From assembly GCA_900316305.1 (NCBI GenBank), contig ONCM01000004.1, forward strand, positions 1 to 64,000: 64,000 nucleotides of DNA, in the 5' to 3' direction. Source of the stretch: an uncultured Bacteroidales bacterium (GTDB taxonomy: Bacteria; Bacteroidota; Bacteroidia; Bacteroidales; WCHB1-69). The notes beneath the pieces are model-generated. The model did not search any database and had not been told where the DNA came from. It saw only the letters and a list, made by a program, of their open reading frames with translations. This document shows positions 11,334-56,203 of this stretch, one piece after another; within the stretch, counting starts at the first letter, position 1, and each line of letters starts with the position of its first letter. Made by a program: the position numbers and the translations under genes.

Positions 11334-11376
11334 GTCGGTGCTTTTGTAGGGTAGAACGTAAGAGGTGGCATTATTT

Positions 11377-14622: not shown

Positions 14623-15480
14623 ATGAAAAAGGGCAAACGGACTTGCAAAATCCTGAAGGATGTGCGGCGGAAGATCGCACAAGAGAACGACATCCCGTTG
14701 GTGGAACGCGAATGCACCCACGAGGGAGACTGCCGGGGCACATGTCCCTATTGCGAATCGGAGGTGCGCTACTTGGAGCGGGAACTCTCCAAACGCCGGG
14801 CGCTCGGCAAGGCCGTCACTGTGGCGGGCATCGCTGTCTCCACCATGATGATGGGCGCGTGCCACAGTCCGAAAACGCCCGCACCAGCCGCCAGCAACGA
14901 GCCTGAGCCCACCGTGGAGGCAACCTCCCAGCAAGTTCAGGAAGCAGCAGACGGACAGGAAGTTCCGCCGCCTCCTGGGCAATCAGATCCGTATGAGGTG
15001 GACGGCATCGTGGAAGAAGTGGGGAAAATACCAGACCTCCCGGAAAATTCGTCTGGATCCACTCCGAATCGCTGTACACAGAAGCCTTTACAAGTGGCTG
15101 ATGCAGATGATTGGGAGGAGGGGGTAGTTGTGGTGGGGGAAATTGAAGACGATGTTTATTTCGATGAGTCGCCGATGATGTTCGTGGAGGAGATGCCTGA
15201 ATTTCCCGGAGGAATGGATTCCTTGCAAGCCTTTTTGGTAAGGGAGATCCAATATCCTCAGGTGGCGAAGGATAATGGCATCACAGGCACGGTCTTGGTT
15301 GAGTTCGTGGTGGAGAAAGACGGGAGTGTGACCAACGCCAAGGTAAAGATCCCGCTCTTCCCCGAATGCGACAAGGAAGCCGTGCGCGGCGTGATGTCAA
15401 TGCCGAAGTGGAAACCCGGCAGAAACATGGGGAAACCGGTGCGCTGCTGGTACCAGGTGCCTGTGACGTTTCGATTGTGA
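14623..15480 (+). CDS. energy transducer TonB-like protein with N-terminal cytosolic Cys cluster
   Basis: 285 residues. Residues 1-65 are cytosolic and contain CTHEGDCRGTCPYC, a compact four-Cys group (Cx5Cx3Cx2C) suited to zinc or an iron-sulfur cluster. A single membrane segment follows (AVTVAGIAVSTMMMGAC), then a long Pro/Glu-rich linker with PPPPG, and a C-terminal TonB domain (FPGGMDSLQAFLVREIQYP, then GTVLVEFVVEKDGSVTNAKV and PKWKPGRNMGKPV). TonB domains contact outer-membrane receptors. No exbB/exbD nearby. The Cys group is what makes it unusual and may couple the protein to a cytosolic signal. Confidence 0.82.
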   Translation: MKKGKRTCKILKDVRRKIAQENDIPLVERECTHEGDCRGTCPYCESEVRYLERELSKRRALGKAVTVAGIAVSTMMMGACHSPKTPAPAASNEPEPTVEATSQQVQEAADGQEVPPPPGQSDPYEVDGIVEEVGKIPDLPENSSGSTPNRCTQKPLQVADADDWEEGVVVVGEIEDDVYFDESPMMFVEEMPEFPGGMDSLQAFLVREIQYPQVAKDNGITGTVLVEFVVEKDGSVTNAKVKIPLFPECDKEAVRGVMSMPKWKPGRNMGKPVRCWYQVPVTFRL

Positions 15481-20391: not shown

Positions 20392-20400
20392 TTTTTTAAA

Positions 20401-20470
20401 GTTTATTGGTTATTGGTTATAGGTTATTGAAGTTTAATGTTTAATGTTTAATGTTTAAGGGTTAAGGGTT
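20401..20470. repeat. heptamer array (GGTTATT / GTTTAAT / GGGTTAA)
   Basis: Word types TTATTGG, GTTTAAT (three units) and GGGTTAA in series, upstream of the DUF5606 start on the - strand. Confidence 0.75.
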
Positions 20471-20483
20471 ACACGGTTAGAAA

Positions 20484-38164: not shown

Positions 38165-38192
38165 GTAGAGACGCGCCATGGCACGTCTCTAC
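38165..38192. repeat. GTAGAGACG palindrome, copy E, overlapping a stop codon
   Basis: 28 bases, arms GTAGAGACGTGCC (minus strand) and its complement. Its first TAG on the - strand (38189-38191) is the stop codon of the giant surface gene. Confidence 0.95.
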
Positions 38193-41100
38193 TGGGAGAT
38201 CTTCCGGATGCAGCGCACGCCTTGAAGGTCGGTCTTTGGATGATTGCTGAACAATCCCTCATTACAATAATATTGTATAACGGCGCTGTTGAAAGTGCTG
38301 GTGTTGGTCCCGGGCATCCAGAAGTAGCTGCCGGTCAGCTGGTCTTCGTAACGTTGGGACACACTGTTGAAGTGGCCGTTGGCGCGTGCGTTGAAGCCCG
38401 TGTTCGGGACGGTGCCCTCGTGGCCGCTCAGCCAATACTGCGTGCCCGGATCCTTCAGCAGTTCGGTGCCGCCGGCGGTAGCGTTCAGCAGGGCGAAGTC
38501 GGCCTCGTTGGCCACCGCCCAGCCGTCGGGACAGATACCCTGCACGTAGGGTTCGCCGTCGTAGCCGATCTGTGTCGCGGGAACAGCGTTATTGTCGTTC
38601 TCGGGTACGCCCATGGCGGTGTACCAGCTGTAGAGATAGCCGAACTTCTCCACATTGGCATCGTCGTCTCCGAATGCTTTATGTTTGCCGGTGGCCCACT
38701 GCAGGTTCTCGGTGAACCAGCACTGCGTGCCGATGCGAACAGCGTCGTAGATATGGCCGTAGAACTCCATCCCGGAGCATTCGGCGAGATTCTGCTCAAT
38801 GAGGAGCGTGACATCGAAGGCGGGAGCGTAACTGGAGGTCACATTCGAAGAAGTGGCATCTAGGACAAAGAGGGACTTTTCGATGGTACCGGTTTCCATG
38901 AAAGCCTGGGAAGAGCCATCATGGCTGACATACACGCCCGGGGCTGCACTTGACGTCCATAGTTGGCCGCTAAGCGATTGTCCCTCCACTAATCCCGTCA
39001 CATGGAGCTGATCAGCAGTGACGGTGAAAATCTCGCCATCATACACCTTGCTGGAATCGAGAGAAATGCTAATGGACTTCTTGGTGATCTTCAGCCAACC
39101 GTCCGTCACATCGAAAGAAACATCATAGTTGGTGTTCGTTGCGCTGAACTGCTCGGCCGTCAATCCCATCATGTACTTGCCACCGTTTTCAGAGGTCACA
39201 TTCGTGCCGCGGGCCACTGCTTCAGGACCAACGATGTCATTTTCGGTCAATGTTGTCCCGGTGGGGATGTTGACGGTATAACCCGTCACGCTCTGCTCAC
39301 TGCCGTTGTAGGTCTTCGAGGCCGTGTTGCCGGTGATGGTGACCGTTACGGACGCTGGTTTCACGGTAATCGTCTGCTCCTTTGTGGTTGCATTCTGACA
39401 GGTGTCCGTCATCGTCCAGCTTCTGACGATGGTCAGGGAGCCGTCAGGATTTGTAGCAGGGGCGGAATCCTGATAAGTTGTATCGGCCGTTGAACAGGTG
39501 GCCGACACATTACTGACCGTTCCAGTGATCGCCGGATCAATGTCATAAGTGCTGTCCAAGTTGCGGAAAACGGTGATATTATTGGGCGCGGCAAAAGTGG
39601 GTGCCGTCGTGTTGCCACCACTCACGCTTTGCGTCTTCGTTTCCGTGACACAGCCGTTTGTGATGGTGAAGGTACGGGTCACTTTCCAAGAACAGTTGCT
39701 GGCACTCTCCACAACATCTTCGGAGGTGACAGATAGACTATGGATGTTGTTGCAATCGGTGGAGTACATATTCCAGACATCGCCATTGGTTTTGAGATGC
39801 GAAGTCACATCTGCTGAGTAACAAGCGTTGCCCAAAGTCACATCTGTCAGGTCGTTGTCGGTGAAATGCAGCTGTGAAGGCAGGACATGGTACGTATAAT
39901 ACCACTGGAATACCTTGCCCGCACAATCTTGATAGGTGTAATTATAGGTAAAATCACCGGTGCAGGAAGACGATTGGTAGTTGTTGCTCAGCGTAGGTTC
40001 GCCCGGCTCGAGCACATTACCACAAGTATCCACCACCATCGGCATTGCGATATTGGAATTTTCATGCGGCGGGATGATTTCATCCACATAGCAATATACC
40101 TCAGAAGAGGTGGGCACAGGTTCGCCAACTTCGTGGGGTGCTTCATTATGGGTGATATTAATAACCTGGGATACTGTCACACTGTCGCTGCAACCGTCCG
40201 AGATGGTGTAATATCTCGTCACTGAGGAGCAGGCGGCACCCGTGTGTACATCGTGGCTGGAGATATGGAGATCGCCCGGGCAGTCGCCTTGGATGGTCAG
40301 ACCGGCGGATTCGAGTCCCTCCACTGTCGTATAAGGTGCTGGCGCATCGCTTGCGGTGCAACCGTTGACCGTAACAGTCTCCAATGTGCCGACAACGATG
40401 AGGGTGTCGTCCACAATCGTCAGCACACCAGGCAGATAGGTAATATTGTAGTTACCCTGTTTGATCGCGCCGGAGGGCGTAATGGCATACGTTCCGACCG
40501 TGTCTCCAGGCTCTCGAGTGATGGTGTCGGAAATCACACTTTCGGAATCGCCATTCTTCAGACCAGTAACGGTGGCGGTCAATGGCGGATCGGGTGTGCC
40601 ACGCACTTTCTCCTTGTTATCGGCCATCACCATAGCGGTAGCCGGGGTGATGGTGAAGCTGCCCGGGACGGTTGCCACCTCATAGTTCGGATTGCTGCCG
40701 AGGGTGACGGAGATGGGGTAGGTGCCGACATTCTCGCCTTCGGTTCGGGACAAGGTGAAAGCAATAACATCGCTTCCCACAGTGCCGGTGACCGTGGCGG
40801 TGAGTGTCGGGTCGGCATTGCCGTAAATCTTACCCTTGTTGTTGGCGACCACAGTGGCAGGTTTCTTGTTGATGGTGAAAGTGCCAGATGTGGTGGTTAC
40901 CTCGTAGTTGGGGTTGTTGCCAAGGGTGACGGAGATGGGGTAGGTGCCGGCGTTCTCGCCTTCGGATCGGGACAAGGTGTAGGCGATGGCATCGCTTCCC
41001 ACAGAACCGATTACGGTAGCAGTGAGGGTCGGGTCAGAGTTGCCGTAGGTTTTGCTAGCATTATTAGCGGTTACGGTGGCAGGCTTCTTGTTGATGGTGA

Positions 41101-44100
41101 AGGTACCGGTGATTGTGGTCACGTCGTAGTTGGGGTTGTTGCCAAGGGTGACGGTGATGGGGTAGGTGCCCGCGTTCTCGCCTTCGGCTCGGGACAAGGT
41201 GAAGGCGATGGTATCGCCTTCCACGGAACCTTCCACAGAAACGGAGAATTCGGGATCAGGGGTGCCGTAGGTTTTGCTGTTATCAATGGCCGTTACCATG
41301 GCAGGTTTTTTGTCGATAAAGAAGACACCGTTCGTTGGGGTCACCTCGTAGTTGGGATTGTAACCGGGGGTGACGGTGATGGGGTAAGTGCCGGCGTTCT
41401 CACCTTCGGCGCGGGATAAGGAGAAAGCGATGGCATCTCCTTCCACGGAACCTACTATGGTAGCCGTTAGTTCGGGGTCGGTGTCACTGTAGGTTTTGCT
41501 AACATTTTCGGCGGTGATGGTGGCAGGCCGTTTGTTGATGGTGAAGGTGCCGTTGGTCGGTGTAACCTCGTAGTTCGGGTTGTTGCCGAGGGTGACGGTA
41601 ATGGGGTAGGTGCCGACCGTTTCGCCAGCTTCGCGGCTCAACGAGAAGGCGATGGTATCGCCTTCGACAGTGCCTGTGATCGTGGCGGTGAGCGTCGGGT
41701 CGGTGTTGCCGTAGGTTTTCGACGAATCATCGGCTGTCACCGTGGCCGGAGCCTTGGTAATGGTCTGCCAACCATCTTCCGTCACAATGAAGTTCACATG
41801 GGGGAAGTTGGTGTTCGTATTGGAGAACTGATTTGCATTCAACCCCATCGGCGTTGTACCCACATCCGTTCTTGCCGCTGATGCAGAACCGCTAAAAGTA
41901 AAGTCGTGTTCTGTATATGACGGATTGCTGACACTGACCACATCATACCCGATAACGGAATGTTCAACACCATTGTAAACCGCTGTGTCGCGATGACCGG
42001 CAATTCTCACTTCTATCGCATCCGAGGAGGTGATCGTCAGCGTACCGGGTACGTAATTCACATTGTAATTGCCCTGAACGGCATTACCACTCGGAGTGAT
42101 GGCATACGTGCCGACATCCTCGCCTTCGGCTCGGGACAAGGTGAAAGCGATGGCATCGTTTTCCAAGGTACCAGAGATGGTAGCGGAGAATTCGGGGTCG
42201 GGGTCACCGTAGGCTTTGGCGGTGTCATGGGCGGTGACGGTGGCAGCTTTCCTGTTGATGGTGAAGGTGCCGTTTGTGGCGGTCACTTCGTAGTTGGGGT
42301 TGCTGCCGAGGGTGACGGTGATGGGGTAGGTGCCCGCGTTCTCGCCTTCGGCTCGGGACAAGGTGAAGGCGATGGTTTCGCTTTCCACAGAACCTGTGAC
42401 CGTGGCGGTGAGGGTGGGGTCGGTTTCACCGTAGGTTTTGCTCTTGTTGTCGGCAACCACCGTCGCAGGAGCTGGGGTTATAGTCTGGTAGCCATCTGTC
42501 ACAATGAACGTCACATCAAAGCTTCCATTATTGTTGATAAACTGCCCTGCAGCCAATCCCATATAGCTGGTGCCGACATACGTTCTTTCGGCTTCGGTAG
42601 TAGTGCCATTAAAGTCGAAATCATTTTCCGTATAGTCCGGATTGCTGATAGAGACGACATCGTAACCGTTCACGCTATGTCCCTCTCCGTCGTAAGCGGT
42701 TGTATTGCTATGGCCGACAATTCTCACCACCACCTCGGTGGAAGAGGTGATCGTGAGCGTACCGGGCACGTAGGTCACATCGTAGTTGCCTTGCACGGCA
42801 TCGCCCGAAGGCGTGATGGCGTATGTGCCAACCGTCTCACCAGCCTCTCTGTTCAGTGTATAAGTAATGACACTTGCTGCATCGTTATTTTGCAGGCCGC
42901 TAACCGTGGCGGTCAGTTCAGGATCTATCGCATCTTTCACTTTCTCTTTGTCATCGGCCGTAACCGTCGCGGTAGCTCTAGTGATGGTGAATGTGCCGGG
43001 GGTAGCGGTCACTGTGTAGTTGGGGTTGGTGCCGAGGGTGACGGAGATGGGGTAGGTGCCGGTCGTTTCGCCGGCTTCGCGGGATAAGGTGAAATCAATA
43101 ACATCGCTTTCCACAGTACCGGTGACCGTGGCGGTGAGTTCGGGATCGCTATCGCCGTAGGTTTTGCTCTTGTTGTCGGCGGTCACTGTCACGGGGGCGG
43201 GTGTCACCTTCAGCACACCGAGATTGTCGCTAATCTCGTAGTTGTTCGGATTAGTAGTGCCCCAGTCGATGGTGTAGGTGTTGGCACTCTCGCCGACTTC
43301 CGTCTGGCTGCCAGTGGTGGTCACAGTAATGCTTTCATTCGAGGCCAGGCCAGAGATGCTGCCCGCCCCTGTGGAGGGATCGAATGCGGCGGTGAGCGCG
43401 GTGCCGTCGTAGGGCTTGGTGGCGGACGGGGTGGTGATGAAGAGATCGGTTGGCTCCACGGTCAGCGTGCCCGCGACTGTGGTCACATTGGTGAAGTAGT
43501 CGGTCTTAGTCTCGCCATTGGCGTTCTTGATCACGTAACTGGTCACCTCGTTTGCGCTGGTGCCGACATCGGTCTGGCTGCCGCTCGTGGTGGCTTCCAC
43601 ATAGAAGTCGTTGGGCAGACCAGTGGCGACTACGGTGTCGTTGGTCAATGCGGTACCATCGTACTTTTTGCTAGCGCTTTTCGCGGTCAGTGTTATTGGC
43701 TGTGTGTTGGGGGTGACAGTGAGCGTACCGAAATGATTGATCACCGTGTAGTTTTTCTGCTGCGCTATGTTCTCGTCCCAGGGACCGGGATTGCCCCAGT
43801 CAATATAGCAGGTGTTGGGGCTGGAGCCCACATCCGTCAGGCTGGCGGAGGGCATACACCAGACGTGCTCGCCATTCTGCAGTCCCTGAACATTCCAGTC
43901 GTAGCTGGTCAGCTCCGTGCCGTCGTACTCTTTGGTGGCACTACCTGTGAAGAGCGTCAGCGTCGCGGGCACGATGACGATACAGCTGTCGATGGGATAG
44001 AAGTGGTAGAGGCAGGTCTTGTCTTTACCCGTCTCCGCGTCTTTGATACTCCAACCTACAATTTTGTTTCTCACGCTGTCCACATCCTTGATCATCATAT

Positions 44101-47100
44101 CCGGGTTCGAAAGAGACACTATCAGCGAGTCTCCAATCCTGAGGGCGAGCTGCCTCCACTGGTCACTGGTAACATAGTATTCAGCCCGTTCCGGAACCTT
44201 CCAATTATCGTCATATTCCACGACGTTGATGCTGTTGAGCGAGACAGGGATGCCGTCATAGACCTTTTTGAAACCCTTGGCGCGAAGTGTCATCTTGGGG
44301 TTGATAGGATCGTTGACTTTAATCTGTTTATCTTGATAGCACCCCAAACTGTCAGTGATAGTAATGTAATACAAGCCGTTGGCGAGGTTGAACAGGGTGT
44401 CGTAGCCTTTCGGTACACCGGATTCGTCGGGGGGATTGAGGGCGGGGATCGTGTCGTCGGCTATTAACCTATGGTTCGAATCCCAGCACATAATCGAATA
44501 CGGCGAACCGTCCCTGTTGAATTCGAACTGCCTGATCACAAGCTCAATCCAGCCGTCGTCAGTATCGACGCAGTTGCCCCATTTGGTTGCGAGGTAGTTA
44601 AAGGAATATTCATCAACCAATATGGTGTCGTGAGCTTGGCACAAAGGAGCGTTAATATCAGTGGTGGTGAGATAGTAGGTGTCGGAGGAGAGGTAGCGGA
44701 GGGAGTCGGGATGACCGGCAATGAAAGATTCATTGTCAATGGTGCCATTCGCCCTTGACCATTCGTAGGTATATTCTGTGCTGGTATGTTCTGTGCTGAA
44801 TCCGCCGCCGATGACCGTCGCTTTCAGGAATCCGATGTTGTGCCCGTATTTACTCCAATAGCTATCCATGCAGGCATCTTGCTTGGCGAGGGTCGTCTCC
44901 AGCGGTGTTGAGAAGAACAGTTCGATGGCCTTTGTGCTGTCGCAATCCTCACCTTCGGGACTATAGGAATAGAAACCGGGTTCGTCCAAGATTTCGGTGT
45001 GGTCGTTGGTCGGCTTCCAAGCATAAGCGGAGCAGGCCAGTATGGTGTCGATCTTGATATTTGCCGCTGCGACGTTCAGCGGCATCACACGGCGTTCGCA
45101 GCTGATACTACCCGACAGAACCACCATTAGCGAATCTTCGCCGCAGGTAAAAAGCGAGAATTCGCCGTTGGTGGTTTCTGGATCGGGAGTATTTAACGCG
45201 GTGCCCGTACCGTAGCGATACCATTTGGCATCGGCGGTAGTGTCGGCGGTGAAATCCGCCACAATGTTGTTCACCGTCATGTGTCCGGGCAGGTAAATAG
45301 GCTTCACCGAGGCAATGGCCGCAGGGGAATTATGAATGATGAATTCTGAATTCTGAATAGTTTTGAGACGAGGGTATTCATTCTCGTTATAGGACCAGTA
45401 AGTGTCGCCTAACTCAGTTTTAAGGCTGTCGCCAATCATTTCGGCGGTTGAGTGGGCGGTGGGGCCCTCTGCATCCTGCAGATGTTTATCTTTCAGAGGA
45501 CAGAGCTGTTTGTCGAAATAACAATGATGAATGTTGAATGATGAATTCTGAATTAAATTGACAAATGGATCTGTCACGGTGTCGCCACTAACATATCCCG
45601 CGTTGTAACAATTGTACATGGTACATTGTGCATTGTACAGTGCACCGGCAAGGCCGCCAACTTGCGTTTTACCGTTAATTGCTCCGGTATTGTAACAATT
45701 CTGAATTCTGAATTCTGAATTCTGAATTGAACCAATCATACCGCCAACCCGACTGTCATTATCGGAGCCGCTGACCATTCCATAATTGAAACTTTGCTTT
45801 ATAGACCCCAGATAATTATCATTTATCAATTCTTCATTATCAATTAAACCGACAATTCCGCCTACGGATTGATTGCCGCGCACATTGCTGCCGTTATAGC
45901 AGTCGAAGATTTGGGAAAAGAATGCTTCGCCGATGAGGCCGCCCACAGCAGTTTGGCCTTTAACGACGGGAGTGGAGCTGCAGCTGGACAGGGTGCCGCA
46001 GTGGCTGACAGTACCGTTGCAGTATCCGGCCAGGGCGCCCACGCGGTTGTTGGCCGAGAGGAGGGAGACGTCGTAGAGGAAGAGGTTTTTCACGCGGCCC
46101 TGGAGATAGCCGAAGAGGCCCCAGAAGTCCAAGTCCTCGCTAGTGTTTATGAAACTGACGTGGACCGCGTGCCCGCCGCCGTCGAGGTAGCCGCGGAAAG
46201 GATGTTCTTCGGTGCCGATGGGCAACCAACTATAGTCAATGTAATTCACATCGTTATTGAGGCGGAAGTAGAAGCCGTCGGCGTCTGCGGGAATGGGGGT
46301 GGCATCGGTCAATAGTTGATTACTACCATAGAAAGATCCATTGGAGTAATAGAACGTCTGGCCGTTTTTGATATAAATCCTGAGTTGCGGGAAGCCAACA
46401 CTGTTTACGATAAGGGGCTGCTGTTCAGAGATGCCGAAGGAGAGCTGTACGGCGCGGAGAGGGATGGTATGGTTTTCCCCATTACTAAATATAGATTTCG
46501 TGGCTTTGATGCGCATGAAGTTGCGCATACCAGAGGGAGTGAGGGTGGTGCCCGAAAGAGTGGCTGCGTTGTCGCTGTTTTTGACCTTGCTCCATTTGAA
46601 GTTGGTGCCTGTAACAGGGGTGTAGGAAGGCAATGTGTAGGAAGTGTCGGGGGAGAAGGACAAGTTATAGATATCGCCAATCTGCAACGCAAGTGCCGAG
46701 ACCTGGCTGGCATCAGTGTTGGAAATGGTGGACAGACGCGGGTACATACCCTCGCCGTATATCCACGGACGGTCGCTACCGAAGGTGACTCCCATCATCT
46801 CGGAGGTGGAATGTGCCGTAACCCCCGTCACATCCTCCTCGTTCACGCCCTTGTAGGAACACATCTGCTTGTCGTAATGGAGGTTGTGGAACATGGTCGT
46901 GTCCGATGTGTAACCGCACACGGCACCGACCATCGAGGATCCCTCGACCCAGCCGGCGGAGTAACCATAGCCGGAGGCCACGGTGGGATCAAGCTGCGAA
47001 CCAACGATACCACCTACCTGCGAAATGCCTTTCACGATGCCCGTGTGGTAACAATCGGTGAAATGGCAGGCCTCCGACAGATGTCCTATCAGGCCCCCCA

Positions 47101-50100
47101 CAAAGTAGCGACCCATCACCAAACCGCTGTTGAAGCATGCACTGACATTGGAAGAATCTGTCAATGAGCCGACGATACCGCCGACGTAATCGTCTGACTT
47201 CGATTCGCAGACAGTACCCGCGTTGAAGCACCCGTTGATGCGGGTGCCTTTGGTACAAAGGCCTGCGATGCCGCCAATGTAGTTGCCCTCAGCGATGATG
47301 GTGCCCAAGTGCTCACAACCGTCGATAATACCGTTATCCATCTTGCCCACGACGCCGCCGATATAGTTGCCATGCGAAGGAACCCTACTTTGTTCGTCCA
47401 CATAGCAGCTGCGGATTTCCGACTGCGTGCCGTTGGAATAACCGGCAATGCAACCGACGTATGACATAATGGATTTATTGTAACTGTTGTTATAAGAGGT
47501 GTCGGCCACCAAGATGCCGTTGTGGTTGTATCCTACGATGCCACCGACGGTGTCAATGGTAACACCGGGGTTAATTGACAAGTGCGAGCGACAAGAGTCG
47601 ATAGTGCCGAAGTCGTTGTAGCCGCAGATGCCGCCGAAGCAGGAGCCGTGGGTATACGTGGCGTTCTCGATTTGGGTCATATCTGTCTGGCAACGAACAA
47701 TGCGACCGTAGTGGTTGGTGCCACAGATGAAACCGAGGTTGCGGCCGGTGACAGCAGAAAGCCTGCTGGGGCTATGGTAGTTAATGCCGACATCTTGAGT
47801 TATGAAACAGTTGCGGATGGTGCCGCTATTGTTGTATCCGCAGAGGATGCCGCGGTGGTCGCCCGTGGTATTATGGTTGGTGATGGCGCCAGCAATGGTG
47901 AGGTTCTTCACCGTGCCGCCGTTGATATAGCCGAAGAAGCCCTGATTGTCGCTTCCCGGAACGAGGAAGCTTAAGACGGTGTGGTTGCCGCCGTCGAAAT
48001 GGCCACGGAAGGGACGGGTCTTGGTACCGATAGAGGTCCACAGGTCAAGGACATTGTAAGGTTGCCCACTACTGGTGGTGCCATGGAAAGCGAGGTCAAC
48101 ATCGGCCGTTAATTTGAAGTAGAGGTTGCGGCCGCCGTCGGTGATTCTCACGCACGTCGAGGTATTGTTGGGTGTCGAAGTGAAGAAAGTTTGGTCGGTG
48201 TAACGATAATAACCAGACCCTTGGTTGATGATGGTGCGGAATTTCTTTAATTCATCCGCATTTTTGATAATTATCGGATTCGCCTCGGTAAGGTTCACCC
48301 ACAGCTGCACCTTGCGATAAACAGGATCGTTGGTACCGGCGCCCCGGAAGCCCAACGTAACAAAGCCCTGAGCAGGATGATTGTCGGTGCTGGGGATGGT
48401 GACGGCTATAAGGTTGTTGCTGGGAGTCGTCCCTATCGACACACAATTGCTGCCGCCAATACGTTGCCAGCTGCCGCCATCGGAATAATTCACCGAGAAT
48501 TGGTGGGAGACGGTGCTGTAGGTCTCGGTAGTGTACAACTTGGCCCTCATGGCAGAGGCTTTGGAAAGTATGGCGTTGATGCTTTGAACGCCCTTGAGTT
48601 GGGGATAATAATCGTCTTGGTAGTACCAGATACTGTCGCTGCTGTCATCTCCCAACAGAGGTTTCATATATTGCTCTCCCATCATGGTATCAGTAGGCAA
48701 ACCTTTGGCCACGCCTGTCTGATCGCTGCCGTCAATGCCACCTGCTGTTGACATTTGCTTGTCGTAGTAACAATTATGAATGGTTATGGGTGATGGGTTA
48801 TTGGTTATTGAGGAGCCGACGATGGAGCCGAGATGGAGGCCAGTAGAGCGTACGGTGTTGGAAACGTAGCAATTTTGAATGGTTATGGGTGATGGGTTAT
48901 TGGTTGTTGAGCCGTCTATGGCGCCGCAAATACCACCGACGTATTTCCTATTTTCACCATTAACGATTCCAGCGTTATAGCAATTCTGAAATTTGCATTC
49001 AGGATTCTGAATTAATCCCACGAGACCGCCGACGTAATTGTCGACTAAGGCGTTGCCGGGTTGGGCAGTCACAATGCCAGTGTTGAAACAATTGTACATC
49101 GTACATTGTTCATTGTTCATTGTGCCTATAAGGCCGCCGATATAGGGACAATCGGCATTACCGGTGATGTCGCCTAAGTTGGCGGAATTCTTCACATTGC
49201 CATCCTTGGCGATAATACCGCCGATACATTGGATACCCATGACATCGACGTAGTTGAAGCAGCCGATGATGCTGTCGTCTGCGGTCAATGAGACACCGGC
49301 GATGCCGCCGACGGTAACACCGTACATGTTGTCGCTTGTATTATTATATTTTTTGACGGAGCAGTTCTCAATGCGACCGCCGTTGAGAATGGCGCAGACG
49401 GCACCGGCAGTGTCGGCACCGACGATGGTTTCGACAGTGATGTTTAGGTCATACACCTTGCCCGTAAGGGTGCCGAAAAGGCCGACCACAGACCGGGTTG
49501 AATTAAGTCGGGCGAGAGTATGGTTATTGCCAAGGAATGTGCCCGCGAACCGTTTCGTGCCGATAGGAATCCAGTTGGATGTGATATCGGACAAGTTGAT
49601 GTCGTTGGTGAGGCTGAAGACGATGTCCTGCACATAATGCGGAAGGAGATAGTCTTTATAGATTACCATGTAGTTCCCGTTCACGATGTTTCGCAGATTA
49701 TTCAGATCATGAAAGTTGTCAACGGTCATCGTGTCGGACAGCGGGAGACTGTCTAACGCTAATCGTGGTGTGCAGGCGGCGATGGCGTCCATGCGGACGG
49801 ACGAGCTGTCGGTCCAAGTCAGTCGAGGGTAGCGCCCCTCCTCGTAGAGCCAGTCGTCGTCGCCCATATACTCTCGCACAAGGGCTTCGGGACCGATGAA
49901 GTAGCGTGTAGCTACTTTTGTCGCCCCTTCACAGACGGGATTGACATGGTAGTCGTTGTAAAACGTTGTATACGCTGATTCTACCTCCACTTGATTGCCA
50001 GTAAGCACACCGGCATTGTAACAATCTGTAGAGACGTGGTGCACCGCGTCTCTACAGTGTCCAACCAGGGGGTGTACGGTGCCATTGGCGGCCGTGATGT

Positions 50101-52405
50101 CCCCCGTGTTGAAGCATCGTTCGATGATGCAGGTATCGGCGTACACATGACCCACCAGACCGGCAGCGTACCCGCTGCCACTATTGACCACTTTGCAGCT
50201 GTTGAAACAGCCCGTGATGCGGATGCTGCTGAGTGCCTCACTGTCTGTTCCCACCGAGCCTATCAGAGCGGCACAGTTGTCGCCGTTGAACTGTAGGGGC
50301 GTACCTGCGTGTGCGCCCTTGACCACGGCGCAATTCTCGAAAGAACCGCCCATGACGTTGGTGGCCAAGGCGGCCGACGAACCTCTGCAGCCGGTGATGT
50401 GCGGGTCTTCGAGGATCAAATTGCTTATCTCGCCCTTGCTATAAACAAAGAGTGCACGATCGGTGCCGTTCGTCATCGTAAGGTTCATCAGCTTATGCCC
50501 CCGGCCGTCGTAAAAACCGGTGAAACAGGTGTCGGCGTTCTTGCCGATGGAGACCCAGTCACCCACGCTGGCAAGGTCGATGTCGGCGGTCTGTATCCAG
50601 TGAATGTGCGGAAGAGAGTCGTGAGGAATCAGGAAGCGGTGGTAAACGAAGTCCTGGTTTGCGTTGATGCCGTCGCGGAAGGCGAGGAAGTCTTCCAGAT
50701 TGCTGATGAGGAAGGGGTTCTCGGCGGAACCGACGTACGGGGGGATGTTGATCACCGCATCGTAATAGCGGGTGCGTCCAGCCACCTCTACGGTGAGGCG
50801 CACCACACCCTGCTTTTGCAGATAGACATTCCAGCTGTTGTTGGGCGCATAGAACACTCTGCTGACAGCATCGGGCCAGAGACTGTCGATGGTCCACGTA
50901 ACATCCAGACTGTCACACCCTTTCCACAGCGCGAAGGACTCGGTGAGGTTGGAGAGTTTCATGTGCTTGCGCTCTTGGTCATTCATGTTGTTGATGGTAC
51001 TTTGGCCGTTGCCATTCGGTTTCATGAAGACATCGAGAAACGGAACGAGGGTGGCGGTCACAATGGAATCTTGGGGGTAATCCAATTCGAGGCGGTAGGT
51101 GACATTTATCGGATCGTTGAATGGATCCGGGTAGGGGTAAACATTGCACAGATAGGTGTTTTTCCACAAGCTGGGCTTCTGATTTTTGATGTCGAAATAC
51201 ATCATGCTGTAATAGGTCATGTCGTAGGTGCTGAGGGCTGCGGCACCCCTATTGGCCCGCCAATCTGCCGGCACCCATGACGATCCAGGAATTGACGGAA
51301 GGTCGCTCAGCTGCCAGTCGAAGTAGCAGGTGTCCACCCGGATGCTATCAACATCCGGATCATAGCTATTGGTGCTGTTAGGGGAGAGCGCATAGCCGTA
51401 GATGCCACCTATGTGGTTGTTGACAATTTCTTCGTCGGTGCCGATACCGCCGTGGGTCGGGTTTGCACCCGAGAGGGCTGTGCCGACCATATCGGTGGTG
51501 CGGACAATCATGGAGGAGTAGCACTGACGCACGGTGCCCTTCTCCACCTTGCCGACCAAGCCGGCGACATAGTCACCGGTGCAATCGACATGCCCGGAAG
51601 CGAAGCAAACGCTGACTTCGGGCAATAGAGTGGAAGACTGCGCCCCCGCAGTTGTATCATCATACGCTGTCATCAGTCCGATGAAGCCGCCCACATTGCT
51701 GCCGTTTGTGCGGATGCTGCCCTCGAAGAAACAGTCGTTGATATGGCCTCCGGAGAGTTCGCCCACCATACCTCCGATGTTGCTGGCACCACCTCTGATG
51801 TAGGAATTGACAATGCCGAGTTTTTCGATGTGTGCATCCCCCTCCATTTTCGAAAAGAAGCCTACACCCACAGTGCCGTCCGGACGGTCGATGTACATAC
51901 CGCTGATCGTATGCCTATCACCGAGTAAGTAGCCTTTGAACACGCCAGTCTCGGGCCATACCGTCCAATTGGGGTCAATCTCGCCGTCGCAAGCGGCCAG
52001 ATTCCCCTCGTTGAGGGTGATGTCATTCGGTATCAAGAAATACTTACCTTCGCCGTAGGCGGGAATGGTGTCGTAGGTACCGCTGGTGGGAGGCGTTGTG
52101 CTACAGATCCACTCTTTGCTGTAGCCATATCTATAAAAGTAGAACTCGTTGCCAGTACTGAGGCAGTTGGCAAAGGCCACTAACTCTTCAGCCTTACGGA
52201 TCCGGTACGGATTATTGGGCGTGCCATGACCACCCTGTGCATTCGCCGTGCCCCCGGCGAACAGAAGCAAGCAGAAAGGCAGAAGAAGGAAGATGGTCTC
52301 TTCAGGGTGATTACGGCGATAGCGCCCTGCACGGATGAGCATGCACGCAAGGGCTATGAGTACCAAAGCTCCAATAATCAGAAGGACAATCAGTTTTGTG
52401 GACAT
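38189..52405 (-). CDS. giant repeat surface protein (GLUG, MBG and FISUMP domains), 4738 residues
   Basis: One open frame of 14.2 kb. The N-terminus has two hydrophobic segments, LIVLLIIGALVLIALAC and IFLLLPFCLLLFAGGTANA; the second looks like the true signal peptide. Residues ~150-2370 are GLUG-type beta-helix repeats with the motif I(N/D)CYNxG. Residues ~2370-2810 are beta-rich linker domains. Residues ~2810-4000 are MBG domains, many 74 residues long (KTYGNSDPTLTAT, GTYPISVTLGNNPNYEV). Then come Cys-containing domains, one more MBG unit, and a C-terminal FISUMP domain (GTQCWFTENLQWATGKHKAF). Probably a surface adhesin. No T9SS tail; the stop is supplied by a palindrome. Confidence 0.9.
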   Translation of the reverse strand: MSTKLIVLLIIGALVLIALACMLIRAGRYRRNHPEETIFLLLPFCLLLFAGGTANAQGGHGTPNNPYRIRKAEELVAFANCLSTGNEFYFYRYGYSKEWICSTTPPTSGTYDTIPAYGEGKYFLIPNDITLNEGNLAACDGEIDPNWTVWPETGVFKGYLLGDRHTISGMYIDRPDGTVGVGFFSKMEGDAHIEKLGIVNSYIRGGASNIGGMVGELSGGHINDCFFEGSIRTNGSNVGGFIGLMTAYDDTTAGAQSSTLLPEVSVCFASGHVDCTGDYVAGLVGKVEKGTVRQCYSSMIVRTTDMVGTALSGANPTHGGIGTDEEIVNNHIGGIYGYALSPNSTNSYDPDVDSIRVDTCYFDWQLSDLPSIPGSSWVPADWRANRGAAALSTYDMTYYSMMYFDIKNQKPSLWKNTYLCNVYPYPDPFNDPINVTYRLELDYPQDSIVTATLVPFLDVFMKPNGNGQSTINNMNDQERKHMKLSNLTESFALWKGCDSLDVTWTIDSLWPDAVSRVFYAPNNSWNVYLQKQGVVRLTVEVAGRTRYYDAVINIPPYVGSAENPFLISNLEDFLAFRDGINANQDFVYHRFLIPHDSLPHIHWIQTADIDLASVGDWVSIGKNADTCFTGFYDGRGHKLMNLTMTNGTDRALFVYSKGEISNLILEDPHITGCRGSSAALATNVMGGSFENCAVVKGAHAGTPLQFNGDNCAALIGSVGTDSEALSSIRITGCFNSCKVVNSGSGYAAGLVGHVYADTCIIERCFNTGDITAANGTVHPLVGHCRDAVHHVSTDCYNAGVLTGNQVEVESAYTTFYNDYHVNPVCEGATKVATRYFIGPEALVREYMGDDDWLYEEGRYPRLTWTDSSSVRMDAIAACTPRLALDSLPLSDTMTVDNFHDLNNLRNIVNGNYMVIYKDYLLPHYVQDIVFSLTNDINLSDITSNWIPIGTKRFAGTFLGNNHTLARLNSTRSVVGLFGTLTGKVYDLNITVETIVGADTAGAVCAILNGGRIENCSVKKYNNTSDNMYGVTVGGIAGVSLTADDSIIGCFNYVDVMGIQCIGGIIAKDGNVKNSANLGDITGNADCPYIGGLIGTMNNEQCTMYNCFNTGIVTAQPGNALVDNYVGGLVGLIQNPECKFQNCYNAGIVNGENRKYVGGICGAIDGSTTNNPSPITIQNCYVSNTVRSTGLHLGSIVGSSITNNPSPITIHNCYYDKQMSTAGGIDGSDQTGVAKGLPTDTMMGEQYMKPLLGDDSSDSIWYYQDDYYPQLKGVQSINAILSKASAMRAKLYTTETYSTVSHQFSVNYSDGGSWQRIGGSNCVSIGTTPSNNLIAVTIPSTDNHPAQGFVTLGFRGAGTNDPVYRKVQLWVNLTEANPIIIKNADELKKFRTIINQGSGYYRYTDQTFFTSTPNNTSTCVRITDGGRNLYFKLTADVDLAFHGTTSSGQPYNVLDLWTSIGTKTRPFRGHFDGGNHTVLSFLVPGSDNQGFFGYINGGTVKNLTIAGAITNHNTTGDHRGILCGYNNSGTIRNCFITQDVGINYHSPSRLSAVTGRNLGFICGTNHYGRIVRCQTDMTQIENATYTHGSCFGGICGYNDFGTIDSCRSHLSINPGVTIDTVGGIVGYNHNGILVADTSYNNSYNKSIMSYVGCIAGYSNGTQSEIRSCYVDEQSRVPSHGNYIGGVVGKMDNGIIDGCEHLGTIIAEGNYIGGIAGLCTKGTRINGCFNAGTVCESKSDDYVGGIVGSLTDSSNVSACFNSGLVMGRYFVGGLIGHLSEACHFTDCYHTGIVKGISQVGGIVGSQLDPTVASGYGYSAGWVEGSSMVGAVCGYTSDTTMFHNLHYDKQMCSYKGVNEEDVTGVTAHSTSEMMGVTFGSDRPWIYGEGMYPRLSTISNTDASQVSALALQIGDIYNLSFSPDTSYTLPSYTPVTGTNFKWSKVKNSDNAATLSGTTLTPSGMRNFMRIKATKSIFSNGENHTIPLRAVQLSFGISEQQPLIVNSVGFPQLRIYIKNGQTFYYSNGSFYGSNQLLTDATPIPADADGFYFRLNNDVNYIDYSWLPIGTEEHPFRGYLDGGGHAVHVSFINTSEDLDFWGLFGYLQGRVKNLFLYDVSLLSANNRVGALAGYCNGTVSHCGTLSSCSSTPVVKGQTAVGGLIGEAFFSQIFDCYNGSNVRGNQSVGGIVGLIDNEELINDNYLGSIKQSFNYGMVSGSDNDSRVGGMIGSIQNSEFRIQNCYNTGAINGKTQVGGLAGALYNAQCTMYNCYNAGYVSGDTVTDPFVNLIQNSSFNIHHCYFDKQLCPLKDKHLQDAEGPTAHSTAEMIGDSLKTELGDTYWSYNENEYPRLKTIQNSEFIIHNSPAAIASVKPIYLPGHMTVNNIVADFTADTTADAKWYRYGTGTALNTPDPETTNGEFSLFTCGEDSLMVVLSGSISCERRVMPLNVAAANIKIDTILACSAYAWKPTNDHTEILDEPGFYSYSPEGEDCDSTKAIELFFSTPLETTLAKQDACMDSYWSKYGHNIGFLKATVIGGGFSTEHTSTEYTYEWSRANGTIDNESFIAGHPDSLRYLSSDTYYLTTTDINAPLCQAHDTILVDEYSFNYLATKWGNCVDTDDGWIELVIRQFEFNRDGSPYSIMCWDSNHRLIADDTIPALNPPDESGVPKGYDTLFNLANGLYYITITDSLGCYQDKQIKVNDPINPKMTLRAKGFKKVYDGIPVSLNSINVVEYDDNWKVPERAEYYVTSDQWRQLALRIGDSLIVSLSNPDMMIKDVDSVRNKIVGWSIKDAETGKDKTCLYHFYPIDSCIVIVPATLTLFTGSATKEYDGTELTSYDWNVQGLQNGEHVWCMPSASLTDVGSSPNTCYIDWGNPGPWDENIAQQKNYTVINHFGTLTVTPNTQPITLTAKSASKKYDGTALTNDTVVATGLPNDFYVEATTSGSQTDVGTSANEVTSYVIKNANGETKTDYFTNVTTVAGTLTVEPTDLFITTPSATKPYDGTALTAAFDPSTGAGSISGLASNESITVTTTGSQTEVGESANTYTIDWGTTNPNNYEISDNLGVLKVTPAPVTVTADNKSKTYGDSDPELTATVTGTVESDVIDFTLSREAGETTGTYPISVTLGTNPNYTVTATPGTFTITRATATVTADDKEKVKDAIDPELTATVSGLQNNDAASVITYTLNREAGETVGTYAITPSGDAVQGNYDVTYVPGTLTITSSTEVVVRIVGHSNTTAYDGEGHSVNGYDVVSISNPDYTENDFDFNGTTTEAERTYVGTSYMGLAAGQFINNNGSFDVTFIVTDGYQTITPAPATVVADNKSKTYGETDPTLTATVTGSVESETIAFTLSRAEGENAGTYPITVTLGSNPNYEVTATNGTFTINRKAATVTAHDTAKAYGDPDPEFSATISGTLENDAIAFTLSRAEGEDVGTYAITPSGNAVQGNYNVNYVPGTLTITSSDAIEVRIAGHRDTAVYNGVEHSVIGYDVVSVSNPSYTEHDFTFSGSASAARTDVGTTPMGLNANQFSNTNTNFPHVNFIVTEDGWQTITKAPATVTADDSSKTYGNTDPTLTATITGTVEGDTIAFSLSREAGETVGTYPITVTLGNNPNYEVTPTNGTFTINKRPATITAENVSKTYSDTDPELTATIVGSVEGDAIAFSLSRAEGENAGTYPITVTPGYNPNYEVTPTNGVFFIDKKPAMVTAIDNSKTYGTPDPEFSVSVEGSVEGDTIAFTLSRAEGENAGTYPITVTLGNNPNYDVTTITGTFTINKKPATVTANNASKTYGNSDPTLTATVIGSVGSDAIAYTLSRSEGENAGTYPISVTLGNNPNYEVTTTSGTFTINKKPATVVANNKGKIYGNADPTLTATVTGTVGSDVIAFTLSRTEGENVGTYPISVTLGSNPNYEVATVPGSFTITPATAMVMADNKEKVRGTPDPPLTATVTGLKNGDSESVISDTITREPGDTVGTYAITPSGAIKQGNYNITYLPGVLTIVDDTLIVVGTLETVTVNGCTASDAPAPYTTVEGLESAGLTIQGDCPGDLHISSHDVHTGAACSSVTRYYTISDGCSDSVTVSQVINITHNEAPHEVGEPVPTSSEVYCYVDEIIPPHENSNIAMPMVVDTCGNVLEPGEPTLSNNYQSSSCTGDFTYNYTYQDCAGKVFQWYYTYHVLPSQLHFTDNDLTDVTLGNACYSADVTSHLKTNGDVWNMYSTDCNNIHSLSVTSEDVVESASNCSWKVTRTFTITNGCVTETKTQSVSGGNTTAPTFAAPNNITVFRNLDSTYDIDPAITGTVSNVSATCSTADTTYQDSAPATNPDGSLTIVRSWTMTDTCQNATTKEQTITVKPASVTVTITGNTASKTYNGSEQSVTGYTVNIPTGTTLTENDIVGPEAVARGTNVTSENGGKYMMGLTAEQFSATNTNYDVSFDVTDGWLKITKKSISISLDSSKVYDGEIFTVTADQLHVTGLVEGQSLSGQLWTSSAAPGVYVSHDGSSQAFMETGTIEKSLFVLDATSSNVTSSYAPAFDVTLLIEQNLAECSGMEFYGHIYDAVRIGTQCWFTENLQWATGKHKAFGDDDANVEKFGYLYSWYTAMGVPENDNNAVPATQIGYDGEPYVQGICPDGWAVANEADFALLNATAGGTELLKDPGTQYWLSGHEGTVPNTGFNARANGHFNSVSQRYEDQLTGSYFWMPGTNTSTFNSAVIQYYCNEGLFSNHPKTDLQGVRCIRKISQ
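40640..43190 (-). repeat. tandem MBG-coding repeats (222-base units)
   Basis: Within the giant gene, successive units of 222 bases (74 codons) are near-identical at DNA level from about 40640 to 41740, shown by GTAGTTGGGGTTGTTGCC-type segments recurring at ~40908, 41130 and on. Related, more divergent units continue to about 43190. Such near-identity favours unit gain and loss by recombination and makes assembly length uncertain. Confidence 0.8.
45329..45846 (-). repeat. low-complexity words embedded in the giant gene, cluster 1
   Basis: In-frame tracts of intergenic-type words: ATTCTGAATTCTGAA (45329-45360 and 45696-45730), ATGATGAATGTTGAATGATG (45522-45558), TTGTACATGGTACATTG (45610-45646), ATTATCATTTATCAATTC (45813-45845). 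Most stand immediately before an NCYNxG or HCYFDK motif of a GLUG repeat. Confidence 0.8.
48779..49125 (-). repeat. low-complexity words embedded in the giant gene, cluster 2
   Basis: Two nearly identical tracts GGTTATGGGTGATGGGTTAT (48779-48811 and 48877-48911), encoding TNNPSPITI before NCYV/NCYY. Another is TTGTACATCGTACATTG with TTCATTGTTCATTG (49091-49125), encoding NNEQCTMYNCFN. Confidence 0.8.
50028..50055. repeat. GTAGAGACG palindrome, copy F, inside coding sequence
   Basis: 28 bases (30 with the flanking T/A pair), in frame in the giant gene, encoding CRDAVHHVST just before DCYNAG. Identical in sequence, inverted, to copy D at 34293-34320. Confidence 0.95.
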
Positions 52406-52409
52406 TTCT

Positions 52410-52530
52410 TTAATGGTTATAGGTTATAGGTTATTGGTTATTGGTTTTTCATCGTTTTTCATCGTAATTCATCGTTTTTCATCGTAATTCATCGTTTTTC
52501 ATCGTAATTCATCGTAATTCTTCATCGTTA
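52410..52530. repeat. leader repeat of the giant gene (GGTTATT words and ATGAAAAACG/ATGAATTACG decamers)
   Basis: On the - strand about eight 10-base units ATGAAAAACG or ATGAATTACG, then AACCAATA/AACCTATA words, fill the leader between the -7 box and the ATG. Each decamer carries an ATG. Confidence 0.8.
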
Positions 52531-53817: not shown

Positions 53818-53921
53818 TAGTTTACAAGTTTAGGAGTTTAGAAGTTTACAAGTTTAGGAGTTTAGAAGTTTACAAGTTTAGGAGTTTAGAAGTTTACAAG
53901 TTTAGGGGCTTAGAAGTTTAT
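53818..53921. repeat. 8-base word array (AGTTTACA/AGTTTAGG/AGTTTAGA)
   Basis: About 12 units of period 8 filling the gap between the AraC gene start and the end of the PCMD-type gene. Confidence 0.9.
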
Positions 53922-54952
53922 TATCGTGTGACGACTTCGCCGGTTAAGGCAATGGTATAGACCTGCTCTCCATCGTCGTGCATGACGATCACGCGGATGA
54001 GTGCGGGTTCCGTTTCCACGCGCACGTTGGCGTTGGGCGACTGTGCCTCGGCCTCCACCTGCGGGATATGGCCGCTGTTGTCGCAGAACCAAGCGTAGTC
54101 AGTGCGGTCGGGATCGAAATCCGGCAGCGGCTGCCCGTCAATCTTGAGGTAGGAGAGCCGCTTGTTGTATATCATCTCTATGTCGTCGATGATCAGTTTG
54201 TCGCCGCTGTTGCCGCCTTTGGCAACTTTGTTGGTCGAGAAGCAGACAAGGATGTAGGAGGGCGTGCGTGTGGTAGATTTTACCACACGGTTTTGCTCAT
54301 CGTAGTAGGTGAAGGCGAATTTGTAGCGGTGCCATTTCTGGTCGTTCGGATCCTTGAACTCGCAGAAGGCGTTTCCGATTTTGCCTTTCTGTGGGGTGGA
54401 AGCCGTATGCGTGGAAATGTCTTTGTACGCTAAGTTGCCATGTAAGTGAAATTTGGCGATGGCTACCGTGGAAGGTTTCTTCATGTCAAATTTGCACCAG
54501 AAATAGACCGAGTCGGGACGGCCGGTGAACGTCATCGCAGCCTTGTGCCCGCACTTGTTCTCCTTATCGGTGTAGGTGCAGTTGTCCGAACTCTTGTTGT
54601 CGGGCGAAGCAAATTGCATCTGGCCTGTGGTGAGTACCCCGTTGACGAGGTTGCCGGCGATGGTCACCGCGTAAATCTCGCAGCCGTAGCCGGTATGGCC
54701 GGTCACGCGGTTACTGTGATTCTTGGTCGTCTGTCCGCAACCCCACGAGTAGATGCCCTTGAGCTGACAGTCGCCGTCGCCGTAGGAGTGCCAGGATTTG
54801 GGCACTGCATTGCCCTTGTCGGTGGTGGTCCACTGCTCGAAACCCTTGTTCAGGACCTGCGTCTGCGCAGAAGTGGAATTGCAAATTAATACTTGAAGGC
54901 TGATAATAAGACCCGCCATCACGAGCCAAAACCCTCTATTTCGTCTATTCAT
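53921..54952 (-). CDS. exported PCMD-type protein (putative carbohydrate-binding)
   Basis: 343 residues from the ATG at 54952, which starts a signal peptide (MNRRNRGFWLVMAGLIISLQ, cleavage near TSAQ). The frame is open upstream to 55018 through five MNNT repeats, each with an ATG. The first ~250 residues match the PCMD family (putative carbohydrate metabolism domain): NKGFEQWTTTDKGNAVPKSW, then PDSVYFWCKFDMKKPSTVA and a C-terminal IIDDIEMIY. A second small Ig-like domain follows (SYLKIDGQPLPDFDPDRTDY, then VYTIALTGEVVTR). Surface or periplasmic. Same strand as the esterase upstream. Confidence 0.8.
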   Translation of the reverse strand: MNRRNRGFWLVMAGLIISLQVLICNSTSAQTQVLNKGFEQWTTTDKGNAVPKSWHSYGDGDCQLKGIYSWGCGQTTKNHSNRVTGHTGYGCEIYAVTIAGNLVNGVLTTGQMQFASPDNKSSDNCTYTDKENKCGHKAAMTFTGRPDSVYFWCKFDMKKPSTVAIAKFHLHGNLAYKDISTHTASTPQKGKIGNAFCEFKDPNDQKWHRYKFAFTYYDEQNRVVKSTTRTPSYILVCFSTNKVAKGGNSGDKLIIDDIEMIYNKRLSYLKIDGQPLPDFDPDRTDYAWFCDNSGHIPQVEAEAQSPNANVRVETEPALIRVIVMHDDGEQVYTIALTGEVVTR

Positions 54953-55060
54953 CGTATTATTCATCGTATTATTCATCGTATTATTCATCGTATTATTCAT
55001 CGTATTATTCATCGTCATTCATCGTCATTATTCATCGCTCATTCATCGTGTTATTCATCG
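54953..55060. repeat. 12-base tandem repeat (ATTATTCATCGT) across a gene start
   Basis: Five exact units on the - strand, ACGATGAATAAT, followed by less regular ATTCATCG words. Each unit carries an ATG in the frame of the PCMD gene, and the array also supplies the TGA stop of the esterase (55055-55057). Confidence 0.9.
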
Positions 55061-56203
55061 TTGGTTCCAAAACAGTGTCTGGGCATATTCGGTGAAATAG
55101 ACACGCCAGTTGCGCCAGGTGTGGCCGCCCTTGGTGTTATACATGGTGTAAAGGATATGTTTGCGCTGCATTCTTTTGCGAAACTTGTTGATACGGTGGT
55201 GGAAGAAATCTGCCGTGCCGCCGCCAATCCAATAGTAGGCGTAATTGTTGTTCGGGAGCTGCTTGCCACCTACCACGGGCGAGAACAGTCCGATGGACGA
55301 GAACGTGCTGTCGTACATGTTGGCCAGGTTGGCGGACTGTTTGGCACCGGCGGAGAGTCCTGCCACGGCGCGGCTACCCTGCTTTTGCGAGAAACGGTAT
55401 AAGCCACTTAGGTAGGCGTCCATTTCTGGGTAGCAGTGCTCGAATTCCAGATCGTTCCAAGCAGGGTAGAGGAAAATGTTCTTCAATAGGCCGATGTTCT
55501 CCTTCTGGGCGATCAAGCTGACGGGGTTGGCGTCGGGCATCACCATGATCATCGGTTTTGCGCGACGCTCTACGATGAGGTTGTCGAGCACCTGCGCGGC
55601 ACGACCACGGTCCATCCACGCGGTCTCATTGCCGTTGAGCCCGTGCAACAGGTAAAGAACAGGGTAGTCCTGACCGCTTTCGGCGTATTGGGGTGGGGTA
55701 TAGACGATTATCCTGCGGATTTTCTCTTCATTGGAAGACTGGAACTCCACGGTGTCTAACCGGCCATGGAGCGGATCCCAGAGGTACATATCGGTCTGCG
55801 GGGTGCCGCCGATGATGAAAACGCTCCGTCTTTCATCATGCACACGCACGGAATCCGGGTTGGCGGGGTCGCAGATTCTCTTGCCGTTTCGTTCGAATTG
55901 GTAGGTATAAACCTCGGGCGCCATCGGAGGCGTGGTGTAAGTCCAAATCCCGTCGCTGTCCTTGGTCATCCGCACGGAATGGTAGTCCTCGGTCAGTATG
56001 GTTTTGGTCTCTTTTTTCAACTCGCCGTCACAGAATAATTTGACGGAAAAAGCCGTGCTGTCCGCATAACGGAACACCACTGTCCGGTCTGGATTGATGG
56101 TCAACGACACATTCTGCGCCTGAATGCCTGCAACAAGGGCAAAGAATGTGATGAAAAATGCAACAAAAAATTTATATTTTATTCTTAACTTATTCAAAAT
56201 CAT
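55055..56203 (-). CDS. exported esterase, alpha/beta hydrolase (CE1-like)
   Basis: 382 residues. Signal peptide KFFVAFFITFFALVAGIQAQ. The N-terminal ~130 residues are an Ig-like/CBM48-like domain (RTVVFRYADSTAFSVKLFCD, DSDGIWTYTTPPMAPEVYTY). The catalytic domain has YPVLYLLHGLNGNETAWMD, the nucleophile motif AGLSAGAKQSA (GxSxG) and a late KGGHTWRNWR with the catalytic His. This is the layout of feruloyl and acetyl-xylan esterases of family CE1 in Bacteroidota. Likely periplasmic or at the surface, removing esters from plant polysaccharide. Divergent from the CNNM/CBS gene. Confidence 0.88.
   Translation of the reverse strand: MILNKLRIKYKFFVAFFITFFALVAGIQAQNVSLTINPDRTVVFRYADSTAFSVKLFCDGELKKETKTILTEDYHSVRMTKDSDGIWTYTTPPMAPEVYTYQFERNGKRICDPANPDSVRVHDERRSVFIIGGTPQTDMYLWDPLHGRLDTVEFQSSNEEKIRRIIVYTPPQYAESGQDYPVLYLLHGLNGNETAWMDRGRAAQVLDNLIVERRAKPMIMVMPDANPVSLIAQKENIGLLKNIFLYPAWNDLEFEHCYPEMDAYLSGLYRFSQKQGSRAVAGLSAGAKQSANLANMYDSTFSSIGLFSPVVGGKQLPNNNYAYYWIGGGTADFFHHRINKFRKRMQRKHILYTMYNTKGGHTWRNWRVYFTEYAQTLFWNQR

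Follow-up and report, generated by a model that had tools for sequence, protein, structure and literature searches.

Heptamer arrays and short palindromes in frame within a giant GLUG gene and other genes of a Bacteroidales clade

Results

Repeats in frame within a giant GLUG gene

We examined a stretch of 64,000 nucleotides (the window), which comprises the first 64,000 bases of contig ONCM01000004.1 from the draft genome of an uncultured Bacteroidales bacterium. This genome, 3.28 Mb in 99 contigs, is designated G000; other G numbers denote genomes of relatives, and L numbers denote loci. The minus strand of the window carries a giant open reading frame (ORF) with GLUG-type repeats. Within this gene lie eight arrays of 7-bp words, seven of which stop at the Cys of a GLUG-type motif, and one palindrome. 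The features are as follows.

38189-52405, minus: giant ORF, open over 4738 amino acids; GLUG-type repeats, then ten MBG_2 stretches, HYR_4C and Fib_succ_major (Pfam)
50027-50056, minus: 30-bp palindrome TGTAGAGACG-N10-CGTCTCTACA, in frame, read as CRDAVHHVST directly before DCYNAG
49090-49127, minus: heptamer array AATGAAC/AATGTAC, ends at NCFNTG
48983-49015, minus: degenerate heptamer array of AATTCAG type, ends at NCYNAG; under the 12-of-14 threshold in G000
48870-48908, minus: heptamer array CAATAAC/CCATCAC, ends at NCYVSN
48775-48812, minus: heptamer array CAATAAC/CCATCAC, ends at NCYYDK
45695-45730, minus: heptamer array AATTCAG, ends at NCYNTG
45605-45639, minus: heptamer array AATGTAC, ends at NCYNAG
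45520-45553, minus: heptamer array ATTCATC, ends at HCYFDK
45328-45361, minus: heptamer array, not in a GLUG unit

The residues encoded by 45299-49300 matched the GLUG motif (PF07581) at 71.4 bits against a cut-off of 20.5, in seven stretches, and the score over the whole giant protein was weaker (36.7 bits). We take the protein to be of surface type. Comparison of the GLUG piece with solved structures gave a single weak match (E 0.11), and a search of 45000-52500 against Rfam gave no match at the gathering score. The MBG part of the gene contains a 222-bp tandem repeat of 4.8 copies (40648-41719).

An original prediction, made from the letters of the window, had placed repeat tracts at 45329-49125 inside this gene. 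They are present where it put them, with the array at 48983-49015 being degenerate. With tracts called at 12 of 14 matches, the giant ORF contained seven at lag 7 and none at lags 5, 6, 8, 9 or 10. Over the whole window, at 13 of 14 matches, there were ten tracts at lag 7, two at lag 8, three at lag 10 and none at lags 2-6, 9, 11 or 13; lags 14 and 21, which are multiples of 7, had seven and two. In 500 synonymous versions of the giant protein, drawn from the gene's own codon use, period-7 tracts numbered 0.26 on average and two at most, as compared with the seven observed. Thus, the repeat is a property of the DNA and not a consequence of the encoded residues. Taken singly, the eight array stretches had an observed lag-7 identity with P of 0.0002 to 0.018 in the same resampling. 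The arrays are AT-rich (overall GC 0.31): GC was 0.25-0.43 in the seven tracts versus 0.45-0.52 in their flanks, and the five codons around the motif Cys had a mean GC of 0.25 in the seven array units versus 0.51 in the 15 others.

The tracts were also expected to stop nearly always directly before the NC or HC motif. Under mechanical calling, four of the seven tracts had their end no more than 9 nt from a motif Cys (P ~0.001). When array ends were extended by eye to the last unit, with the hypothesis already known, and the sub-threshold 48983 array and the palindrome were counted, eight of nine elements ended at a motif Cys, a result matched by 0 of 100,000 random placements; the sole exception is the array at 45328-45361, which lies outside any GLUG unit. 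The expectation holds, unlike its companion claim that units lacking an array are short and glycine-type there, as these have 9-14 residues up to the Cys versus 11-17 in units with an array.

The palindrome at 50027-50056, which the original prediction did not list and which was found in the follow-up, is the ninth element and is placed at the same pre-Cys loop as the arrays. It has a hairpin z-score of -4.1 (as single-stranded DNA) and is also present in the G012 orthologue, and its 28-bp core recurs intergenically at 34293 on the opposite strand.

The same kinds of element between genes

The window contains further heptamer arrays between genes.

11236-11335, strand not assigned: AGTTAGC/T
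14592-14625, strand not assigned: CATTCATC type
20400-20471, strand not assigned: GGTTATT, then GTTTAAT/GTTTAAG

Near the giant gene, intergenic arrays at 53819-53920, 52444-52529 and 54946-55061 have periods of 8/24, 10/20 and 12, respectively.

The original prediction had located the same word types between genes at 2131, 14592, 20401 and 30771, and the repeats there are indeed of the same type. We sampled 349,848 unmasked bases of G000 (coding fraction 0.92) for stringent arrays (13 of 14 matches). Fifty-five of the 57 found lay outside ORFs, and the other two were in the giant gene. The corresponding numbers outside and inside ORFs were 22 and 3 in G013 (n = 25) and 57 and 4 in G012 (n = 61). 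Period 7 was the main excess over other periods, as befits long heptanucleotide simple sequence repeats; among the other periods, G012 had 21 noncoding tracts at period 8, and G000 had seven at period 8 and six at period 10. The commonest heptamer words vary from genome to genome, and in the G000 sample AATTCAG, AATGTAG and the CAATAAC class ranked among the 25 commonest intergenic doublets. Orthologous intergenic arrays were aligned in 11 cases, several of which showed another word or length, a number of the alignments being poor.

The palindrome belongs to a dispersed family, GTAGAGACG-N10-CGTCTCTAC, with eight copies in the window, at 7942, 19923, 31682, 34293, 38165, 50028, 52646 and 57692. 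In random stretches of three genomes, the core was 10 nt long in 54 of 55 copies and about 88% self-complementary despite varying in sequence; self-complementarity that persists while the sequence varies suggests a conserved hairpin. The scanned stretches held 70 matches of the pal1 or pal2 type, the eight in the window included, as expected of a short dispersed palindrome. The exact pal1 30-mer was found in 12 of the 39 genomes searched, with three occurrences in G000. Twenty of the 70 matches fell inside ORFs of at least 90 amino acids, some of which are perhaps spurious; the clear in-frame cases are the GLUG gene, tails of the type IX secretion system (T9SS) and L064.

Array loops in orthologues of the giant gene

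When 148 relatives were searched with the protein, 59 gave matches, and three of these were close enough to be aligned as orthologues: G007 (same contig as L033), G012 (L005, overlapping L034) and G017, none spanning the whole gene. Different words, and even different elements, occupy the same loop in different species. At 45605-45639, the words are of AATGTAC type in G000 and G017, and an AATTCAC array of the same length takes their place in G007; seven of the nine differences between G000 and G007 are base changes that recur across units. At 45520-45553, G000 and G017 carry ATTCATC words; G007 instead carries, in frame, the dispersed palindrome TGTAGGGGCGAATAATTATTCGCCCCTACA, the pal1 30-mer described above. 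A second G007 loop with palindrome-derived residues corresponds to a native loop that reads LCTKGT in the other orthologues.

47243-47260, minus: native short loop LCTKGT; G007 has there an 18-residue stretch derived from a palindrome

In the one G007 palindrome insert that was compared closely, the palindrome replaces loop bases. At 48775-48812, G007 has a CAATCAC word and is 6 nt shorter, and the loop is weakly repeated in G017. At 49090-49127, G007 is without an array and 12 nt shorter, and G012 differs from G000 at two of 36 bases. At 45328-45361, G000 is longer by 21 nt than G007 and G017. Not every loop has turned over, since G000, G007 and G012 share much the same array at 48870-48908 and since G000 and G007 differ by one base at 45695-45730, where G017 has a decayed AATKGAA-type array.

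Length mostly stays near constant while the word changes. The differences in array-loop length between orthologues (6, 9, 12, 15, 21 and 36 nt) all keep the frame, and only 21 is divisible by 7. The ORF is open through all array loops in the orthologues seen, which is not the behavior of a phase-variable (contingency) locus.

In-frame elements in IleRS and other genes

We checked eight ORFs with in-frame elements against Pfam. The array lies inside the match in IleRS (tRNA-synt_1) and in a P-type ATPase (hydrolase), within the tail in the T9SS-tail proteins L111 and L116, inside a SpoIIE protein and just before the domain in a macro-domain protein; L064, a T9SS-tail protein, has a palindrome away from the tail, and an RHS-like ORF had no Pfam support.

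IleRS (L089 and L155-L182) was matched in 27 of 40 genomes, with the loop readable in 26. AGTTAGC arrays occupy it in G000, G009 and G020, and variants of this word in G036, G005, G010 and G023; other words are AGTTAAG (G027), AGTGAAG/AGTTAAG (G013) and GTTTAGA (G029). The arrays of G001, G035, G025 and G037 are degenerate, and the remaining readable genomes lack a clear array. Of the two IleRS loci in G010, only one carries an array. Where IleRS was aligned with solved IleRS, the array coincides with a gap in both alignments shown. Between G000 and G027, all eight array differences come down to two base changes, each made in all four units with no change in array length; differences scattered at random would be confined to two or fewer of the seven phases with P 2.5e-5. 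The tree of the IleRS flanks is too poorly resolved to order the word changes.

The arrays depart from their words at stops. The third IleRS unit has GAG or GAA where the word would yield TAG or TAA, and in the G000 array this is the only departure between its two ends. Of 20 array rows, 11 have an ideal word that would put a stop in frame, and all 11 depart there, a count drawn from rows that share descent and from frames that, being open, must lack stops. The coding word may also tend to be a common word of the genome: matches of the 18-mer AGTTAGCAGTTAGCAGTT (counts include overlapping positions) numbered 86 in G000, 23 in G009, 76 in G020 and 53 in G036, all of which carry that word in IleRS, while G027, whose IleRS word is AGTTAAG, had none of these and 17 of the AGTTAAG 18-mer. 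This correspondence is suggestive only.

In the P-type ATPase, the loop directly before GDGINDAP (L100:5601-5628, L185-L207) has CTCAAC-type heptamer words in three genomes (G013, G012 and G036); in the others its sequence is different.

For T9SS tails, we took the best match per genome to an array-bearing query, together with L111, a sample biased towards arrays; among 31 loci with 21 recognised tails, 18 had a period-7 tract and one a tract of another lag. The 16 matches in G000 included eight recognised tails, of which three carry an array and four a palindrome. Outside the family but within the order (28 loci, 23 recognised tails, one of them doubtful), one tail had a period-7 tract and none had a palindrome. 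Comparison of the tail with solved structures gave a single weak match (E 0.1). In the sorting domains of the genus (L208-L237, L266-L281), arrays follow YPNPT..VNV, and the palindrome peptides VGANN.SPL and VET...TSLQ lie further on.

Discussion

We consider it probable, with room for doubt, that in this rumen-bacterial clade non-coding repeats, namely arrays of 7-bp words and palindromes of 28-30 bp, have been recruited in frame as loop peptides. No such site seen here is more densely occupied than the pre-Cys loop of the giant GLUG protein. A repeat would take over a loop, mostly displacing native residues; only versions that are in frame, free of in-frame stops and acceptable as peptides would persist; and the word of an array would then change in all units jointly at near-constant length, most simply through copying misaligned by 7 nt during replication or repair. 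Direct support comes from the DNA-level repeat, the position preference, the different words or elements at one loop between species, the departure at stops and the intergenic abundance. How the repeats enter the loop, and the copying at 7 nt, are inferred. For concerted change at constant length, misalignment copying seems a better fit than the simple addition and removal of units, with replacement by a new array as an alternative. We assume that the inserts are either neutral filling or a means of surface diversification.

Several observations weigh against recruitment of this kind. The exact coding words AATGTAC and AATTCAC are absent from the 25 commonest intergenic doublets of the G000 sample, being rare in its spacers or not seen there. 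The match between coding word and genome word is broken by G013 (8 and 0 matches of the two 18-mers), G005 (0 and 4) and G023 (0 and 0). The comparison between species draws on three partial orthologues. The neighboring loops 48870 and 48775 share nearly one array, and the former is conserved in three species. In 20 stretches from 18 relatives around giant GLUG genes, several of whose ORFs end at the stretch boundary, period-7 tracts inside the giant ORF occurred only in the orthologue G017, the other 19 having none, and no strict-pattern palindrome lay in any ORF. For the genes examined, we thus reject arrays as a general property of GLUG loops: because the other giant GLUG ORFs lack them, what accepts the arrays is this orthologue group rather than GLUG motifs in general, and loop type alone is no explanation. 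The idea that one loop tolerates such sequence holds for this gene, where it has repeatedly received arrays and palindromes, but does not extend to GLUG loops at large. Likewise, of the predicted process that adds or expands words, the presence of intergenic-type repeats at the loop stands, while the near-constant length of array loops does not suit expansion.

A broader version may be entertained tentatively, as we think it less probable than not by a clear distance: a genome-wide process would convert short DNA stretches to period-7 arrays and change the word in all units at constant length, in genes and spacers alike, the IleRS and GLUG loops recording length-neutral events.

In-situ slippage appears unlikely. 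The native I-x-N-C codons (ATTnnnAATTG) put ATT 7 nt apart, a seed from which polymerase slippage could have grown arrays. Most arrays are in phase with the motif ATTG, and slippage is the published hypothesis for heptamers (PMC4679880). In the 15 array-free units, however, the motif starts with ATC in eight and with ATT in one, and only two encode Asn-Cys by AAT TGT or AAC TGC following an I. These codons disfavor a native seed and imply that the AT-rich anchor arrives with the array. Length differences that are mostly not multiples of 7, and palindromes at the same loop, also speak against slippage.

We hold two further explanations to be improbable. One is a single array origin followed by spread among GLUG units through intragenic recombination. 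The near identity of the 48870 and 48775 arrays means that some spread may be intragenic copying, but among the remaining loops there are three or more distinct words, and two loops of G007 hold palindromes. The other is transposition, in which a transposase of the RAYT kind (repetitive extragenic palindrome (REP)-associated tyrosine transposase) inserts palindromes, and perhaps arrays, into genes. Of 40 genomes, 36 encode Y1_Tnp proteins, and the palindromes start with GTAG, the tag of RAYT-linked REPs (PMC3733652). Against this, only two palindromes lay in 93,311 bases around 30 Y1_Tnp loci (best match per genome), as compared with 0.07/kb in random stretches. Copies of GTAG REPs would be expected beside the RAYT gene; with no such enrichment, we reject the link to Y1_Tnp genes. 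The replacement of loop bases in the closely compared insert is a further point against insertion.

Selection on the protein alone, with the DNA repeat as a by-product, is very improbable. The original prediction proposed to judge this by residue conservation under differing words, and a loose pattern, I or M-x-N-C with alternating residues, is indeed kept across species whose words differ; yet the codons chosen show a 7-nt repeat that the residues do not require, equal base changes fall at different codon positions across all units, and synonymous resampling rules out the pure form, leaving protein constraint as a filter. An assembly or contamination artefact is hardly credible: every genome is a draft in many contigs, but separate genomes carry in-frame arrays at the same loops and their long ORFs stay open.

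If recruitment is accepted, non-coding repeats have repeatedly become protein segments at defined sites, in a protein of presumed surface type and in an essential tRNA synthetase, and the arrays in genes would form a frame-filtered record of array change, in which the word turns over in concert while length stays nearly fixed.

The literature searched yielded no paper on heptamer arrays within genes of Bacteroidales or on in-frame palindromes in Bacteroidetes, and a search on the arm GTAGAGACG gave no title on such a repeat among those listed. Several known systems are related. Intragenic REPs are known, including in tRNA synthetases, with elements at about the same recB site in two species (Di Nocera 2013, PMC3733652), and Rickettsia palindromic elements are short dispersed palindromes in frame inside genes (PMC3733652; review PMC10969869, citing Ogata 2000 and 2002). 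The present palindromes resemble both in being short, dispersed and in frame within genes, and here too a tRNA synthetase is among the genes with in-frame elements; the available text of these two accounts does not name GTAGAGACG-N10-CGTCTCTAC. Unlike in those systems, heptamer arrays are the main element here and palindromes come second, and several units of one protein are occupied at the same motif. Among longer simple repeats, heptanucleotide repeats are reported to be the commonest class in most surveyed genomes, and slippage has only been proposed for them (PMC4679880, citing Mrazek 2007). The TAACTGA repeats of Beggiatoaceae, Cyanobacteria and some Bacteroidetes (MacGregor 2015, PMC4679880) are, like the arrays described here, heptamer direct repeats that are mainly intergenic, with some in ORFs, and constrained by stops in the word. 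They differ in having one fixed word, mostly near start codons or the protein periphery, whereas here many words lie inside folded domains and vary between species. The heptameric repeats of Xanthomonas and Nostoc (PMC4692102) share with the present arrays their intergenic over-representation and their variation in length and sequence among close relatives at the same place, but those repeats are G-rich and quadruplex-forming, whereas the arrays of this clade are rich in AT.

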